Source: Adhaeribacter rhizoryzae
Lineage (GTDB): Bacteria; Bacteroidota; Bacteroidia; Cytophagales; Hymenobacteraceae
Length of the DNA stretch: 64,000 bases
Direction: 5' to 3'
Assembly (NCBI RefSeq): GCF_008629685.1
Contig: NZ_VWSF01000025.1
Location: 1 to 64,000, forward strand
Shown: positions 53,349 through 60,085 of the stretch, piece after piece
Layout: the number at the start of each line of letters is the position of its first letter
How positions within the stretch are numbered: the first letter of the stretch is position 1
Notes under the pieces: generated by a model
Seen by the model: the letters and a program-made list of their open reading frames with translations, nothing else
Told to the model about the DNA's origin: nothing
Databases searched by the model: none
Program-made: the position numbers and the translations under genes

Positions 53349-53648
53349 TTACACACTTACGCGGTTAAAATATTTAACCCAAACACTCTTGGGAACCAGT
53401 TTTACGCCTTTGGGAATGCCGTTGTGCGAATCGTGGTATTTGTGGCTTTCGTACCAAACGTTAAAGCTCGCTTCATCTTCCCAATAGCTCATAAGCCAGA
53501 ATTCGTTGGGGTTTTCCTGGGCCGTAAAAACTTCCATTCGTACAAAGCCAGGCGCTTCATCTACCAGGTGCGGGCGGTTAATAAAAGCGGTTTTAACTTC
53601 TTCGCCCATATCGTTGGCTACTGTAAAAGAACTCAGGGAAATAAACAT
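53349..53648 (-). CDS. ABM-fold monooxygenase, possibly haem-degrading
   Basis: A 99-residue ferredoxin-like (antibiotic biosynthesis monooxygenase) protein. Compared with IsdG, Trp65 in FNVW and His75 in YHDSH have the same 10-residue spacing as the haem-distorting Trp and the haem-ligand His of that enzyme. The third key residue, Asn7 of IsdG, is Ser here. It lies 51 bases after the kinase gene on the same strand and is probably co-transcribed. A role in haem breakdown, and hence bilin supply to the phytochrome, is inference. Other ABM monooxygenases remain possible. Confidence 0.7.
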   Translation of the reverse strand: MFISLSSFTVANDMGEEVKTAFINRPHLVDEAPGFVRMEVFTAQENPNEFWLMSYWEDEASFNVWYESHKYHDSHNGIPKGVKLVPKSVWVKYFNRVSV

Positions 53649-53699
53649 AGCTAATAATTAAAATAAAATAATGTTAACTAAACCGGCCTGGGCGGTTTA

Positions 53700-56600
53700 T
53701 TAACTTTCTAAAAAATATAAGATAAAGGTAGTACCCTGGCCTTCTTCGCTTTGTACGTCAATTTTGCCGCCGGCATTATCCATCATGCGTTTTACAATGT
53801 AAAGGCCCATGCCGGTGCCGCTTACGTGCGAGTGAAAACGCCTGAAAAGGGCGAATAATTTAGATACATTTTCTTGGCTTAAACCTAAACCGTTGTCGGC
53901 TACCGATAATACCAAATAGGGGCCTTGCCGTTCGGTGCTCAGGGTTATTTCGGGATCGCGTTCCGAGGACCGGTATTTTACCGCATTGCTGATTAAGTTA
54001 TAGAAAATGCTGTATAAGTTTTTGCGCGAGAAGTTTAGCTGGGTTACGCCAAAATTAATGTTAAACTGTACGGGTACGCCGGCAATTAAGTCCTGAATAT
54101 TGCCCCGCACTTGTTCCAGAATTTCGTTTAAATTAACCAGCTCGGCTTCTCCGTCTACGTCGCGCTGTACTTTGGCAATATCGGTTAAGTCGTTTATTAC
54201 GGTTTTAAAGCTATTAATTGATTCTTTAATCATCGTAAAAATAGGCCGGGTGCTTTCTTCCGTAATCTCTTCCGACGAATTTATTTCTTCTTCTAAAAGC
54301 AAAACCAGCCCTTCTACGTTGGCCATCGGCGATTTTAAGTCGTGGGAAGCGGTGTACACGAACATATCCAGGTCTTCGATAACCCGCACCAGGTGTTCGT
54401 TGGTGTTTTGCAGTTTTTGCTGCGCCTGTTTTAAATCGGTTAAATCAATAAACGAGCCTAAAACCCGGTACGGAATTTTGTACTCATTGTGTAAAATATA
54501 GGCCCGGTTAAAAACATAAGCGTAGGTGCCATCGGCTTTCATAATGCGGTATTCGTCCATCCACTGGTCTTTGCCGCGGTTAATAGCCTGGTTAATGCCT
54601 TTTTTTATACTGTCTTTATCTTCCGGATGCACTTTATTGAACCAGCCGTCAATGCCTTCTTCCATCTGGCTGGCCGGGTAACCCAACATGGCCTCAATGG
54701 TTTCGCTCCACCAAATTTCGTTCGAAACCAAATCCCAGTCCCAAACCACATCGTTGGTAGCCATAGATACCAACCGGAAACGTTCTTCGCTGGCCGTAAG
54801 CTGCTGGGTACGTTCGGCTACCCGTTCTTCTAATTTATTATTTAATTTTATTAATTCGCCTTCGGCTTTTTTCAACTCTTCGTAGGCCAGTAATATTTTT
54901 TCTTCGCTTAACTTTTTCTGGGTTATTTCGGCCATGGTTACGGTTAAGCCATCGCCAACTTTAGCCCCCGATATTTCGAACCAGTCTTTGCGGTCGTTTA
55001 CTTCCAGGTGTTGTTCGGTAAGCAGGTGTTTGCCGGTTTCTACCACATCTACAAACTTCCGGAAAAGCCCGGATTTTTTTAAGAAAGGCAGCTCGGTCAG
55101 GGCGCTGCTGTTAAGCAACTGCGCTTGCGGTTTACCTATTAATTCCTCGGCTTTTTTGTTTAATAATATCCAGTTAAAATCAATAATCTTATTTTGCTCG
55201 TTCCGGATGGCGCTCAGGGCCATAATATTATTGAACGAGCTGTTTAAAACACCTTGTACCACGTTGCTTAGCGTAGTGAGAGTGGTTACATCTACAAAGC
55301 TTACCACCACGCCGTCTTTGTTGCCGTCTTGTTTTAAGTACGGAATAATTTTTATTAAAAAATATTTGCCCGTAGTGGTTTCTACTTCCTGTTCTAACTC
55401 CAGCGAATACCGGTTAACGTGCTTAATATTTTCCAGAAAATCTGCATACTGCAGGTTATGCGATAAATGGTGAATAGGGCGGCCTAAATCGCTTTCGATA
55501 ATATTAATTATTTCTTTAACCGAAGGCGTAAATTTCCGGATTACCAGGTCGTGGTCGAGGTAAAGCTGGGCAATATTTGAGCTGCGGATATAATTATCCA
55601 GATCTTCGTTTAATTCCTGCAGCTCTTTTATTTTTAACTGGTGTTCGGAGTTTACGGTGTGCAGCTCTTCGTTTAACGATTGCATTTCTTCGTTGGAGCT
55701 TTGCAACTCCTCGTTCGAAGACATGAGTTCTTCGTTTACCGATTGTAATTCTTCGTTGGCCGTGCTTAAATCCTGAACGGTCAGGTGCAAACTTTCGTGG
55801 GCATCTTTTAGCTCCAGTTCCAGGGCGGTAAGCTGGCGGTAAAAATCGGTTTCGGGCATTTGCAGGGTTTCGCTCAGCACAAAAGGGGTAATACTTTGAA
55901 TAATTTCCTGCAATAAAATCAGGATTACCCGCGGCTGGTTTTTACCTGCATCAACCGGTTTAATGGTTATTTGCACCAGTTGGTTTTTCTCGTTTAATTT
56001 TATAACCACCTGTCGGCTTTCAACTTCTTGGTGGTGTTGCAAAACTTTCCGTATATCAACACTTAATATTACGGCGAGTTCTTTGGGTACTACTTTGAGC
56101 AGGTTAAACTGTAAACGCTTGTTCGGAAATTTAAGAAACCGCTCAATATCGCCAATGCCGTGTAGCAACTGATAATTTTCATCAACATACAAGGCGGTTA
56201 TTTTATAGGTTTCGGCCACGGCATCCATAAAGAAGTCGTTGAACTGCGAAATCTGCGTATTTTTAACCGGCAAACCGTTGCTTACTCCAAACGTTGGGTT
56301 GTAATTGCCATAACCATAATTGGGCTGAGGCCGGGTACTTTCTTTTATTTTCCGGTAAATTCGCCATTTCCGGTTTTCTTCGTAAAACAGCATTTTTATA
56401 TCGCCGAGCTGCTCACTTGGGCCCAGAAACAAATAGCCGTTTAAATTAAGGGCGTACGGAAAAGTAGCCATTACCTTGTTTTGCAGCGCCGGGTTTAAAT
56501 AAATAAGCATATTGCGGCACGAAATTAAATCGAGCTTGCTGTAGGGCGGATCTTTCTGCAAATCGTGTTTGGCAAAAACCACCATTTTGCGCACCTCGGC

Positions 56601-57806
56601 ATTAATTACATATTTATTGCCTTTGGGGTAAAAGAACTTCTCCAGCCTTTCCGCCGATACATCTTTTTCAATCGAAGACGAATAAATACCTTTAGAGGCT
56701 TTGTCCAAGGCCCGCTGGTCAATATCAGTGGCAAATATTTTTACCTGCGACTCGCGGCTGGCTTCAGCACAACATTCCTGAAACAGCATGGCCAACGAAT
56801 AAGCTTCTTCGCCGGTGCTGCAAGCTGTAACCCAAACTTTTATAGATTCTTCGGTGGTTTTGGAGGCAATAATCCGGGGCAGGATATCATTTTTCAGAAT
56901 TTCGAAGGCTTCGGGATCGCGGAAAAATTTGGTTACGCCAATTAAAATTTCCTGGCATAATTTTTTTATTTCGGCCGGATTTACGTGCAAATACTGGAGG
57001 TACTCTTCCAGGGTTTTTACTTCTACCTCACCCATCCGTTTGTTGATGCGGCGGTAAACAGTAGCTTCTTTGTAATCTTTAAAATCGGTTTTGGTATGGG
57101 TGCAAATTAAATCTAATATTTCGTGCAGTACCTGTTGCTTTCTTTGTTCTTCCGGCATTTCTACCAAAGATTTTACCAGCGGTATTTGCCGGGCGTACTC
57201 CAGAATTTCGTGCGCCATTAAGTCGGGGGCCAGAATAAAATCGGCGGAGCCGGCTTCTATCGCGCTCCGGGGCATGCCATCGAATTTTGCCGTATGCGGA
57301 TCTTGTACCACAACCATGCCGCCAGCCGTTTTAATGGCCAGGCTGCCTTTAGTGCCATCGGTACCCGTACCCGATAAAATAATGCCAATAGCCGAGCGCC
57401 CCCGGTCTTTGGCCAGCGACTCAAAAAATATATCGATGGCAAAGTTTGGTTCGCGGCTGCGCTGTTTTTCTACTAACCGCAAGCGGCCTTTTTTTAAGGT
57501 AAGCTGTTTGCCGCTGGGCAGCACGTAAATGCAATTAGGCCGGGTAGGCATGTTGTCTTCGGCTTCCTGCACCTGCATGCGCGTATGCTTCGACAATAAT
57601 TCGGCCATCAGGCTTTTATGGTCCGGCGATAAATGCTGCACAATAACAAACGAAAAACTCGAATTGCTCGGAAAATGATCGAAGAGGGTATGAATAGCTT
57701 CCAGGCCACCGGCCGAAGCGCCAATCCCGATCAGGTAATGATCGGCTTTTGCTTTAAGGGGCGCTGGGTTGGCTGAGGTATGCTGAATATCGTTAGGCAA
57801 AGGCAT
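53700..57806 (-). CDS. CheB-CheR-PAS-histidine kinase hybrid sensor
   Basis: A 1368-residue cytosolic signalling protein. CheB-type methylesterase at about 24-205 has Ser31, His58 and Asp150, so it is intact. CheR-type methyltransferase at about 230-485 includes VWVTACSTGEEAYSLA and ATDIDQRAL. A PAS-like region lies at about 520-640 and a SNEEL-rich coiled coil at about 660-740. Further PAS domains follow (about 745-860, 870-975, 1020-1125). The HisKA H-box is at His1155 (TASHDLKSPMAN). The HATPase domain has the N-box (about 1267-1280), ADNGLGLS and GTGMGLYIV. It follows the phytochrome gene by 29 bases and is its likely output. Confidence 0.93.
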   Translation of the reverse strand: MPLPNDIQHTSANPAPLKAKADHYLIGIGASAGGLEAIHTLFDHFPSNSSFSFVIVQHLSPDHKSLMAELLSKHTRMQVQEAEDNMPTRPNCIYVLPSGKQLTLKKGRLRLVEKQRSREPNFAIDIFFESLAKDRGRSAIGIILSGTGTDGTKGSLAIKTAGGMVVVQDPHTAKFDGMPRSAIEAGSADFILAPDLMAHEILEYARQIPLVKSLVEMPEEQRKQQVLHEILDLICTHTKTDFKDYKEATVYRRINKRMGEVEVKTLEEYLQYLHVNPAEIKKLCQEILIGVTKFFRDPEAFEILKNDILPRIIASKTTEESIKVWVTACSTGEEAYSLAMLFQECCAEASRESQVKIFATDIDQRALDKASKGIYSSSIEKDVSAERLEKFFYPKGNKYVINAEVRKMVVFAKHDLQKDPPYSKLDLISCRNMLIYLNPALQNKVMATFPYALNLNGYLFLGPSEQLGDIKMLFYEENRKWRIYRKIKESTRPQPNYGYGNYNPTFGVSNGLPVKNTQISQFNDFFMDAVAETYKITALYVDENYQLLHGIGDIERFLKFPNKRLQFNLLKVVPKELAVILSVDIRKVLQHHQEVESRQVVIKLNEKNQLVQITIKPVDAGKNQPRVILILLQEIIQSITPFVLSETLQMPETDFYRQLTALELELKDAHESLHLTVQDLSTANEELQSVNEELMSSNEELQSSNEEMQSLNEELHTVNSEHQLKIKELQELNEDLDNYIRSSNIAQLYLDHDLVIRKFTPSVKEIINIIESDLGRPIHHLSHNLQYADFLENIKHVNRYSLELEQEVETTTGKYFLIKIIPYLKQDGNKDGVVVSFVDVTTLTTLSNVVQGVLNSSFNNIMALSAIRNEQNKIIDFNWILLNKKAEELIGKPQAQLLNSSALTELPFLKKSGLFRKFVDVVETGKHLLTEQHLEVNDRKDWFEISGAKVGDGLTVTMAEITQKKLSEEKILLAYEELKKAEGELIKLNNKLEERVAERTQQLTASEERFRLVSMATNDVVWDWDLVSNEIWWSETIEAMLGYPASQMEEGIDGWFNKVHPEDKDSIKKGINQAINRGKDQWMDEYRIMKADGTYAYVFNRAYILHNEYKIPYRVLGSFIDLTDLKQAQQKLQNTNEHLVRVIEDLDMFVYTASHDLKSPMANVEGLVLLLEEEINSSEEITEESTRPIFTMIKESINSFKTVINDLTDIAKVQRDVDGEAELVNLNEILEQVRGNIQDLIAGVPVQFNINFGVTQLNFSRKNLYSIFYNLISNAVKYRSSERDPEITLSTERQGPYLVLSVADNGLGLSQENVSKLFALFRRFHSHVSGTGMGLYIVKRMMDNAGGKIDVQSEEGQGTTFILYFLES

Positions 57807-57835
57807 TTTTAGCAGGCTACTCCTAAAGTTACTAT

Positions 57836-59395
57836 CTAATAATTTTCTTTAATAATTTTTTCCAGCACCGCGCTGCGCAAAGCATGGGCTACTTCTATTT
57901 CTTCGAATGCCCAGGGCAGGGAAGTTTGCTTTACGGTTTCCTGGTAAGTAGCAAATGAATTACGCGGATGGTAAGATTTACCGTCGGGTTCCATTTGAAT
58001 GGCCTGGTTGGGATTACCACCCCATTCTATGGTTTGCAGCACTTCGGGCCGGAAACCCAGAATATATTCGCCTTGTTCCGGATTAATGGCTATGGCCAGC
58101 AGGCCGCTGGCAATTTCTTTATATTCCTGGCTGCGGGCATACTCGGCGGGCAAAGCATTGGTAACGTATAACTTATTTAATTCGTGGCGGCGCAGCCAGT
58201 AAATTAATTCTTTTATTTCCTGCTCGTTGGGGGTTTGGCCCAATACAATGGTAGCGCCATCGTAAACTACGGCAACGCCAGCGAGGTTTAACAAAGCCAG
58301 CAAATTGGTTTCGCCTGTAAGCAGGCCTTCGGTAAAACTTGGCTGGTTGTATATTTGCTCCAGTAAATTGGCGTAAATCTCTTGCAACTGCACCCGCAAG
58401 GTCATGGCGTTTTCTTTTTCTTTTGCAGCCAGCTGCGCCGATACAATGCCCGAAAGCAACTCCAGCGAAGACCGCAGTTCATAGCTCAGGTTTAGCGGTG
58501 TTTTATGGTGGCACGAAATGAGCCCCCACAATTTATCGTCGAAAATAATGGGCAGCGACATAGACGCCATAATTTGCATGTTGCGCAAATATTCTAAATG
58601 CACGGTGGCCACACTCCGTAAATTACAATCCGATAAATCGGTAAACCGCATGGTTAACGGATTAATAACCGGAATAAGGCCCACCGGCTGGTACGAGCGG
58701 GTAGGAATTAAGCGGTAAGGATTGCGGAAATATAAATCGCGGGCTTGTTTGGGTACATCCGAGGCCGGAAAGCGCAGTCCCATGTAATCGTCCATGTCAT
58801 CTTCTTTGGCCTGGGCAATTACAATACCGTTCCACTGCGGGTCGAACTGGTAAACCATTACCTTATCGAAATTAGTTATTCGCTTAATTTCGTTTACCGT
58901 AATATGGGCCGCCGCAACCGTAGAATCAGCCTGTTTAAGCAAAGAGGTAATATATTTTATTTGCTGGTAAAGTCCAATAAAAGAATTATCGGAGGTTGCT
59001 GGTGCATTTTCTTCTAATTCAACTAAAATATATTCGTCTTTGGGGTGCACCAGGGCTGTAAAAAAAACCGTTTTGGCATTTGCCGTAAAAGTGAGGCTGA
59101 AAGGAATTTTATCCTGGCTGTTTTGCCGGATAATTTTTTCCTGAATATCGCTGAACTGACTGGCCGGCAGATAAGCTGACAATGGTTGCTCTAAAAAATC
59201 ATCCACGGGCAGCGAAAACAACTCCTTCAGGTTCTCGCTGGCTTGCACAATTTGTAATTCTGCTTTATCCAGCACCAGCAACAGGCCGTGGGGCTGAATT
59301 AAATTAACCAAATTGAGGGGAATGGACCCGCAAAAATCAGAATCATAATTTTTATCAATAGCAATATTAATCGGGTTGGTATTCAGATTTCTCAT
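57836..59395 (-). CDS. Phytochrome photosensory module (PAS-GAF-PHY) without kinase
   Basis: A 519-residue protein with PAS at about 20-130, GAF at about 145-325 and PHY at about 335-510. Numbering against Deinococcus BphP shows the pocket intact: Cys22 near C24, Tyr182 for Y176, Asp213 for D207 (PASDVP), Arg260 for R254, His266 for H260, Tyr269 for Y263, His296 for H290. The PHY tongue has FRPE (448-451), WGGNP (458-462) and PRNSF (477-481). It ends about 9 residues after the last helix, so it has no output domain. It should bind biliverdin and sense red/far-red light. The partner is the kinase 29 bases downstream. Confidence 0.93.
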   Translation of the reverse strand: MRNLNTNPINIAIDKNYDSDFCGSIPLNLVNLIQPHGLLLVLDKAELQIVQASENLKELFSLPVDDFLEQPLSAYLPASQFSDIQEKIIRQNSQDKIPFSLTFTANAKTVFFTALVHPKDEYILVELEENAPATSDNSFIGLYQQIKYITSLLKQADSTVAAAHITVNEIKRITNFDKVMVYQFDPQWNGIVIAQAKEDDMDDYMGLRFPASDVPKQARDLYFRNPYRLIPTRSYQPVGLIPVINPLTMRFTDLSDCNLRSVATVHLEYLRNMQIMASMSLPIIFDDKLWGLISCHHKTPLNLSYELRSSLELLSGIVSAQLAAKEKENAMTLRVQLQEIYANLLEQIYNQPSFTEGLLTGETNLLALLNLAGVAVVYDGATIVLGQTPNEQEIKELIYWLRRHELNKLYVTNALPAEYARSQEYKEIASGLLAIAINPEQGEYILGFRPEVLQTIEWGGNPNQAIQMEPDGKSYHPRNSFATYQETVKQTSLPWAFEEIEVAHALRSAVLEKIIKENY

Positions 59396-59689
59396 TTGGT
59401 TAAGAAACAGGATTAGGCCTGCGGTTGTTTTATAAATTAAAATAATTCAATAACGGGATAACGCGCAAGGCAGTTATTAATTGGCACTCAAATAATATTT
59501 TTGCTTCGGAACCCGGCATAGGTAATTAAAAAGCCTGGCGCAAAAAGCAGAAGCAGGTAAAATTACAAACTTCCGTTTTTGCTGGTGTTCTTGGGGGTAT
59601 TTAAAAATAAGCAGCGACCCAGGTTAAATTACCTAGAGCCTATTTAATAAGCGCTTATTTTAAATAGTGTAAACGGAAAGTGGCAATAT
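59396..59689. other. 294-base spacer with palindrome
   Basis: Between the response regulator and phytochrome genes. It is non-coding. A near-perfect palindrome, ctatttaataagcgcttattttaaatag, spans about 59640-59666 around the centre AATAAGCGCTTATT (59646-59659). It may end the regulator transcript or bind a regulator of the phytochrome operon. No -33/-7 promoter was clear. Confidence 0.4.
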
Positions 59690-60085
59690 TTATACTAAGA
59701 TTTCTTTTAGTTTTGCCGTAGTTAAGGGTTTATTCAGGAAAAATTCTATCCCCTCATCTTTTGCCTGCTTAAAATCGGAGGGTGCCAAAGAGGTTGTCAG
59801 CATTACCACTTTCGTGTGCGCCACCAAATCAGGGTCAAAAGTTTGTTTGTAAATCCGGTAAAACTCTATCCCATCCATTACAGGCATTTTAAGATCTACC
59901 AGAATAACATCCGGAAACCGGGTATTGGTCCGGACAAATTCCTGTAAAAGCTCCAGGGCTGCTTTGCCATCGGGGGCAGTATGCAACTCGGCAGCATTAT
60001 CTACTTTGGCAATTAATAATTTATTCAGACTAATAGTAGTCCGGTTATCATCAACTAATAAAATATGAGGCAATGGCTTATTCAT
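59690..60085 (-). CDS. Single-domain response regulator (CheY-like)
   Basis: A 131-residue receiver domain only. The acidic pair is Asp12/Asp13, the phosphoacceptor Asp64 is in VDLKMPVMDG, and the conserved Thr and Lys are in MLTTS and NKPL. No output domain is attached, so it works by protein contact like CheY or a phosphorelay carrier. It precedes the phytochrome gene on the same strand, separated by 294 bases. It is the natural candidate to be phosphorylated by the hybrid kinase, though pairing is unproven. Confidence 0.92.
   Translation of the reverse strand: MNKPLPHILLVDDNRTTISLNKLLIAKVDNAAELHTAPDGKAALELLQEFVRTNTRFPDVILVDLKMPVMDGIEFYRIYKQTFDPDLVAHTKVVMLTTSLAPSDFKQAKDEGIEFFLNKPLTTAKLKEILV

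Follow-up and report, generated by a model that had tools for sequence, protein, structure and literature searches.

Probable split phytochrome signalling with a candidate stand-in enzyme for bilin supply in Adhaeribacter rhizoryzae

We analysed a window of 64,000 nucleotides from the soil bacterium Adhaeribacter rhizoryzae (contig NZ_VWSF01000025.1, positions 1 to 64,000), in which genes for a kinase-less phytochrome, a separate CheB-CheR-PAS histidine kinase and a small ABM-domain protein follow one another on the minus strand. The three genes probably form a light-signalling unit (probability about 0.62), in which a bilin made by the ABM protein would serve the phytochrome for red-light sensing and the kinase would provide the output in trans. 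The sequences themselves show the parts and how they are arranged, a deeply conserved phytochrome-kinase pair, no detectable classical heme oxygenase in the searched genomes that carry ABM, and ABM genes repeatedly next to bilin receptors of two unrelated types. Because ABM genes occur where no heme oxygenase is detected and are recurrently adjacent to bilin receptors, we propose that the ABM protein is a photoreceptor-dedicated bilin synthase. The three genes are:

57836-59395, minus strand: phytochrome, kinase-less, 519 amino acids (aa), PAS_2-GAF-PHY
53700-57806, minus strand: CheB-CheR-PAS-PAS-PAS-HisKA-HATPase kinase, presumed output partner in trans, 1368 aa
53349-53648, minus strand: ABM-domain protein, candidate bilin-forming heme degrader (Ser6-Trp65-His75), 99 aa

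Transcription would run from the phytochrome to the kinase (29-bp gap) and on to the ABM gene (51-bp gap). In the proposed sequence of events, the ABM protein would open heme to a bilin in place of a classical heme oxygenase of the BphO type. The conserved residues suggest that this bilin is attached to Cys22 of the photosensory module, which would then photoconvert, and the conserved gene pairing suggests that the output-less phytochrome relays the signal, through contact, to the CheB-CheR-PAS-histidine kinase.

The phytochrome and its separate kinase

Comparisons were made in a family sample of 204 Hymenobacteraceae genomes, 163 of them with a phytochrome match, and in an order sample of 390 genomes, 165 with such a match. 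Below, G numbers denote genomes and L numbers loci. A. rhizoryzae is G000 (6.5 Mb, completeness 100, a single phytochrome match); genera g1, g4 and g5 are Adhaeribacter, Rufibacter and Pontibacter, and g3 is presumably Hymenobacter.

The original prediction had described a phytochrome with an intact chromophore pocket, a PRNSF tongue and no output domain, 29 bases from a kinase with CheB and CheR domains. Both open reading frames (ORFs) and the gap between them were recovered at the same positions. Pfam detected PAS_2 (residues 26-128), GAF (161-323) and PHY (339-516) in the phytochrome and nothing further up to an E-value of 0.01; the protein ends three residues after PHY and carries no covalent output domain. 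Every predicted pocket residue (Cys22, Tyr182, Asp213, Arg260, His266, Tyr269, His296) was in place, as was the tongue (P-R-N-S-F at 477-481). The protein thus has the PAS-GAF-PHY architecture, bilin Cys and pocket of a bacteriophytochrome photosensory module, and its best sequence matches in the PDB were FiDCB, BphP and Cph1 chains with nearly full-length coverage. In 62 short phytochromes of the ABM-carrying lineages, pocket and tongue residues were 100% kept, except Asn479 (98%).

The kinase gene accompanied the phytochrome wherever this type of phytochrome was found. In the split-pair family set, made up of every listed place at 50% identity or more (66 in number, the A. rhizoryzae locus and L037-L101), a CheB-CheR kinase lay downstream on the same strand in 66/66 loci, a recurrence far beyond chance. 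A search of the order sample added 13 short phytochromes (41-51% identity) from families f5, f9, f15 and f19. In all 13 the kinase was the immediate same-strand neighbour, downstream in 9 and upstream in 4; the kinases of L160 and L168 were each read as two ORFs. The pairing on which the original prediction depended is therefore kept throughout these 66 and 13 loci, with the gene order inverted in 4 of the 13. Over the 79 loci the median gap was 43 bp. The reversed order kinase, phytochrome, heme oxygenase was seen in one genus of f15 (L161, L162, L164, L168), and in three of these four loci the kinase overlapped the phytochrome by 11 bp.

In a FastTree tree, the 79 short phytochromes formed one group, set apart from 49 fused ones (support 0.80). 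By these comparisons the sensor-kinase pairing is old, and light signalling in trans, from the phytochrome to a separate kinase, is its simplest and likely reading. A second type of short phytochrome was seen in G128 (L102, 7953-9473; 506 aa, 33% identity). It had no adjacent CheB-CheR kinase, fell outside the 79-member group and was not counted among the 66 family loci.

In the kinase, Pfam identified CheB, CheR_N, CheR, PAS_10, PAS, HisKA and HATPase_c, in agreement with the predicted CheB and CheR domains. We aligned 77 full-length kinases and examined the residues regarded as catalytic. CheB S31, H58 and D150, HisKA H1155 and the checked HATPase residues were identical in 77/77, and CheR G332 and C430-R431-N432 likewise, with T331 in 74 and E333 in 76. 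The alignment thus holds a CheB/CheR/histidine-kinase fusion with the presumed catalytic residues of each domain. The kinase partners at L165, L167 and L169 were longer (1506-1618 aa) and their C-terminal part aligned differently, which suggests extra domains. The A. rhizoryzae genome had one MCPsignal match (L175, on contig C27), located in a frame of 1588 aa whose repeats resemble HAMP. L175 is thus a possible substrate for the CheB-CheR part, which may have a role in chemotaxis.

A further gene had been included in the original prediction:

59690-60085, minus strand: single-domain response regulator, receiver domain (Pfam), optional part

Its receiver domain was present as predicted, 294 bp upstream of the phytochrome. 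Only 2/66 loci (A. rhizoryzae and L037) had a receiver gene directly upstream of the phytochrome. At 6 further loci it came immediately after the kinase, at a distance of 51-85 bp, and of the 13 loci from other families 7 had one within 0.9 kb. We therefore rejected the response regulator as a fixed part of the unit. Taken as a whole, the earlier reading stood as regards a conserved sensor with a separate kinase partner and was half supported as regards the regulator.

ABM genes beside bilin receptors

The ABM gene, overlooked in the original prediction, very probably concerns the chromophore. When the neighbours of the 66 pairs were clustered, many clusters were antisense shadows of the two genes, and ABM was the most widespread real neighbour, at 20/66 loci. 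Other neighbours recurred in 12-14 of the 66 loci, had no visible tie to light sensing and look like clade synteny. The ABM gene followed the kinase in 16 of the 20 loci (1-112 bp) and preceded the phytochrome in 3 (69-112 bp); at the remaining locus it was 677 bp away on the opposite strand. The nearest named relative of the A. rhizoryzae ABM locus was in Adhaeribacter aerolatus (L211, 84%).

We then counted the strong ABM places in the family, 71 in all, including 51 fetched from positions away from the split pair. A bilin receptor was adjacent in 50 of the 71: a split phytochrome in 20, a fused phytochrome in 22 and a photocobilin-like protein in 8. The 22 genes beside fused phytochrome kinases were at most 200 bp away, on the opposite strand in Rufibacter and on the same strand in Pontibacter. 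The 8 others stood directly before a gene for a photocobilin-like protein of about 355 aa. Two genomes, G173 and G159, had an unlinked photocobilin, yet an ABM gene beside the split phytochrome.

The association extended to other phyla. Among GTDB species genomes, 61 ABM loci were located; 18 of these were outside Hymenobacteraceae, all 18 in metagenome-assembled genomes (MAGs): Acidobacteriota (4), Pseudomonadota (12), Nitrospirota (1) and Flavisolibacter (1). A photocobilin-like gene came directly after the ABM gene in 16/18; the exceptions were L270 (a partial match) and L271 (a 30-residue match). In the ABM tree the Nitrospirota contig clustered with Nitrotoga, and it could be a binning error. 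G480, from a different family of the same order, also had the ABM and photocobilin-like pair. In the ABM tree (87 rows, 99 columns, many forks open), the photocobilin-linked rows were confined to one side of a branch that had 77/79 support. The label required 6 changes for fused phytochromes, of which well supported branches force at least 4, and 3 for split phytochromes, with at least 1 forced. The tree fits, weakly, a repeated association with receptors.

The photocobilin-like partners were tentatively assigned by their domains. B12 domains were found in all 12 proteins scanned, and two family members (L107, L155) had B12-binding and phycobilisome domains. The phycobilisome domain PF00502 scored over the cut-off in 5 of the 12 and under it in 1; in the 6 without a match, the alignment to the query nevertheless starts at about query residue 10-35. 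One partner was modelled with AlphaFold2, and the model (predicted local distance difference test, pLDDT, 92.1) had as its three best structural matches the photocobilins 8j2w, 8j2y and 8j2x, over residues 136-351 (the B12 part) only; the match to 8j2w had Z 27.6 and a root-mean-square deviation (rmsd) of 1.6 over 208 residues. The N-terminal domain was barely covered by structure matches, and the basis for assigning it is Pfam, in half of the proteins scanned, together with one allophycocyanin-type match (8imi, ApcB3, E 4e-4).

If ABM supplies the bilin, photocobilins that lack an ABM gene might be expected to lose their bilin binding. Linked and unlinked photocobilin-like proteins differed in this domain. 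The family had 36 strong hits (E <1e-60), 8 linked to an ABM gene and 28 unlinked, of which 17 were fetched (L273-L288, L291). The linked set of 25 consisted of the 8 family members, 16 from outside and G480. Six residues were nearly constant in the linked set (C44 24, D47 25, H51 24, Y70 25, W73 25, R81 25) and mostly missing in the 17 unlinked proteins, drawn largely from one genus (C44 2, D47 0, H51 11, Y70 2, W73 3, R81 2). The B12 motifs E201, H202 and H239 were kept in 25/25 and 17/17. We infer that the six residues of this globin-type domain may bind bilin, in analogy to the phycobiliprotein motif Cys-x-Arg-Asp. The analogy is loose, because the related BBAG-2 globins are reported to bind biliverdin without the motif (excerpt of PMC10151467).

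In the fused phytochrome kinases of Rufibacter and Pontibacter (n=25), we observed an altered pocket: in A. rhizoryzae numbering, Tyr222->Leu and Ser261->Asn in 25/25, Tyr182->Thr in 40% and His296->Gln in 48%. None of the replacements Leu222, Asn261, Thr182 and Gln296 occurred among 24 fused homologues of other genera. The set comprises L103, L108, L111, L113, L116, L118-L122, L128, L130-L135, L137, L139, L143, L144, L150, L152, L173 and L174. A convergent pocket signature of ABM-carrying lineages was considered and rejected. When ABM lineages were compared with heme-oxygenase lineages among short and fused phytochromes, only columns 101, 163, 348 and 501 passed the filter, none of them a checked pocket position. 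With no pocket change common to both ABM groups, this comparison gave no sequence evidence that split phytochromes use an unusual bilin.

Heme oxygenase, ABM chemistry and alternative explanations

The ABM protein appears, from its distribution, to stand in for the classical PF01126-type heme oxygenase where the latter is not detected. The A. rhizoryzae genome had no match to PF01126, PF14518 or profile A1, a heme-oxygenase profile that we built from 13 sequences. In the family, PF01126 matched 76 of the 204 genomes and ABM matched 72, 70 strongly and 2 weakly (G076, G101). None of the 70 strong-ABM genomes had a PF01126 match, and profile A1 found none in the 26 of them to which it was applied. 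Each of the 70 had either a phytochrome match (68 genomes) or, in G008 and G009, a photocobilin-like gene. Within Adhaeribacter, ABM was present in G000, G001 and G002; G003, G004, G005 and G007 lacked ABM and had a heme oxygenase immediately upstream of their phytochrome, and G006 (78% complete) had neither.

The same pattern was seen in the order sample. Of its 165 phytochrome-matching genomes, 129 had heme oxygenase only, 25 ABM only, 11 neither and none both. This count took ABM matches with E <1e-20 (27 genomes), leaving out the weaker ones of G275, G313, G394 and G505. As 129 of the 131 heme-oxygenase genomes had a phytochrome match, heme oxygenase is itself phytochrome-linked in this sample. 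Interrupted reads were seen in two genomes: in G003 the heme oxygenase beside the phytochrome consisted of two overlapping ORFs (L100, 7260-7837, plus strand) and the phytochrome match had one internal TAA, and in G119 the heme oxygenase gave two matches with a stop inside one. These are broken genes or sequencing errors.

By sequence, the ABM protein probably works like a heme degrader, without belonging to the IsdG family. It scored 48.8 bits against Pfam ABM. Its closest NCBIfam model was HmuQ (NF053649), a Bradyrhizobium IsdG-like enzyme reported to make biliverdin (excerpt of PMC6449446), at 39.4 bits against a curated cut-off of 130, too low for a HmuQ assignment; three ABM relatives, also closest to HmuQ, scored 31.6, 48.1 and 35.0 bits. 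An ABM profile matched MhuD, HmoB, IsdI and IsdG in the PDB at E 4e-9 to 9e-5, and TT1380, labelled hypothetical, at 7e-12. Of its 18 PDB matches, every one with a stated heme function was a heme degrader, and the remainder were labelled hypothetical, uncharacterised or plain monooxygenase; the weakest was labelled antibiotic biosynthesis monooxygenase (8ecp, E 0.087). Trp65 and His75 were conserved and align with a Trp and a His of MhuD, which we take to be its catalytic Trp66 and His75. In the 88-row alignment L270 departs after about residue 57, so that its Trp/His placement is unsure. The predicted model (pLDDT 89.7) had the dimeric ferredoxin-like ABM fold and matched MhuD (Z 12.0, rmsd 2.5, 96 residues) and IsdG (Z 11.8, rmsd 2.2, 91 residues). 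The A. rhizoryzae genome encoded two other ABM proteins, L176 and L178.

Several observations weigh against a bilin-forming role of the ABM protein in a light-signalling unit. The catalytic Asn, which is reported to be required in characterised IsdG-family members (excerpts of PMC5557675 and of PMC12670364, section 5.2), was replaced by Ser6 in 88/88 aligned sequences. The Asn-Trp-His triad is thus incomplete, with Trp and His kept, and membership of the IsdG family fails. All HmuQ and IsdG scores (four proteins scanned) were far under the curated cut-offs. The predicted fold matched non-heme ABM proteins equally well as heme degraders, and this tie led us to reject the fold as evidence of heme chemistry. 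The exclusion between ABM and heme oxygenase follows lineages; the counts are not independent, the independent switches are few, and a Fisher p of 2e-21 is not a true probability. Of the 70 strong-ABM family genomes, 44 were checked by PF01126 alone, which misses some divergent copies, such as those of G018 and G036, found with profile A1. Eleven phytochrome-matching order genomes had neither enzyme. Of these matches 6 were weak (E above 1e-35); the 5 strong ones were in G240, G293, G310, G357 and G370. No ABM gene and no phytochrome match accompanied the photocobilin-like gene of G180. The 17 unlinked photocobilin-like proteins came from g3 (12), g6 (2) and g5 (3), and with 12 of 17 from g3 their losses are not independent. 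To these points is added the lack of a pocket change common to the split and fused phytochromes of ABM lineages. Finally, 21 of the 71 strong family ABM places had no adjacent bilin receptor. Many of these were near a TPR gene and electron-transfer-flavoprotein genes, and since ABM-less photocobilin-like genes were found in the same surroundings (L273, L275, L279, L286), the receptor-less ABM genes may be relics of a lost photocobilin.

Three other explanations were weighed against the proposed bilin synthesis and signalling in trans. The ABM protein might tailor, carry or load a bilin, either taken up by the cell or made by an unrecognised heme oxygenase, and not act on heme at all. ABM folds serve many non-heme oxygenases, the fold matches included a crystal of MhuD R26S with biliverdin (6ple), and the replacement of the catalytic Asn described above fits such a role. 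A tailoring enzyme would be expected together with a heme oxygenase, so that their non-overlap in the order sample speaks against it, as do the heme degraders among the PDB matches; we consider this explanation unlikely. The enzyme could also be a housekeeping one for heme or iron recycling, placed near light sensors by inherited synteny. This would account for the receptor-less places and for the ABM genes of G008 and G009, two genomes lacking a phytochrome match, but in both the gene is directly beside a photocobilin-like gene. Adjacency to two unrelated receptors, in varied orientations and in other phyla (the 16/18 above), and the phytochrome match or photocobilin-like gene in 70/70 strong-ABM family genomes leave a housekeeping role with little to recommend it.

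The remaining explanation concerns the output: phytochrome and kinase may be merely co-expressed, with the phytochrome signalling elsewhere or storing bilin. In favour of this, the kinase carries its own PAS domains. The pair was kept in 79/79 loci with short gaps, also with inverted order, and the 62 short phytochromes of ABM lineages retained a canonical pocket and tongue; mere co-expression therefore seems improbable to us.

Relation to known systems and significance

The A. rhizoryzae phytochrome shares with fused-kinase bacteriophytochromes (NF041576 BphP) the PAS-GAF-PHY domains, the Cys near the N-terminus, a PASDIP-type motif (here PASDVP), the His, Tyr and Arg residues and the PRxSF tongue. 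It differs from them in stopping after PHY, with its kinase a separate CheB-CheR-PAS protein, and scored 274 bits against the NF041576 cut-off of 1040. In being a sensor without an attached effector it resembles short LOV proteins, which are presumed to act in trans (excerpt of PMC6798134); here the sensor is a phytochrome instead of a LOV protein and has a conserved neighbouring kinase. As in the BphO-BphP operons of Pseudomonas (excerpt of PMC12670364), a gene for a heme-opening enzyme, here a candidate, is beside the phytochrome, with ABM in place of the PF01126-type enzyme. With HmuQ, IsdG, IsdI, MhuD and HmoB the ABM protein shares the fold, the conserved Trp65 and His75 and its best NCBIfam and PDB profile matches; it differs in the Ser at the position of the catalytic Asn, in the tie to light-sensor genes and in scores under the cut-offs.

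The ABM partners at phytochrome-less loci share with photocobilins and photoglobins the B12 domain and, in part, a phycobilisome-like domain. Compared with the solved photocobilin 8j2w, their order is reversed, with the bilin-type domain N-terminal and the B12 domain C-terminal; the adenosylcobalamin (AdoCbl) domain of photocobilins may be at either end (section 9 of PMC10979010, in excerpt). They are preceded by an ABM gene, which goes unmentioned in the excerpts of the published accounts (PMC10979010, PMC10151467), and the terms heme oxygenase, gene cluster and operon are all absent from the main text of PMC10979010. A literature search of titles and the starts of abstracts returned no link of an ABM or IsdG-like gene to phytochromes or photocobilins, and we regard the novelty of the ABM-photoreceptor link as provisional.

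As a wider and rather doubtful generalisation, the Ser-Trp-His ABM proteins could form a separate bilin-forming class, distinct from the heme-oxygenase fold and present in several phyla, which would serve photocobilins and, in Adhaeribacter, Rufibacter and Pontibacter, phytochromes. Their product may be other than biliverdin IX-alpha, in which case the native receptor pigment would differ from that of published reconstitutions.

Phytochromes in the order genomes sampled, like that of Pseudomonas, are accompanied by a classical heme oxygenase as their source of biliverdin. If the proposal is true, an unrelated enzyme in its place, shared with B12/bilin receptors, would explain how bacteria without heme oxygenase obtain their photoreceptor pigment. 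It would also name a chromophore source for photocobilins and offer a compact enzyme, of 99 aa, with which bilin proteins could be loaded. The kinase-less phytochrome and its CheB-CheR kinase would make a naturally occurring pair of proteins for direct tests of light-controlled kinase activity in trans.

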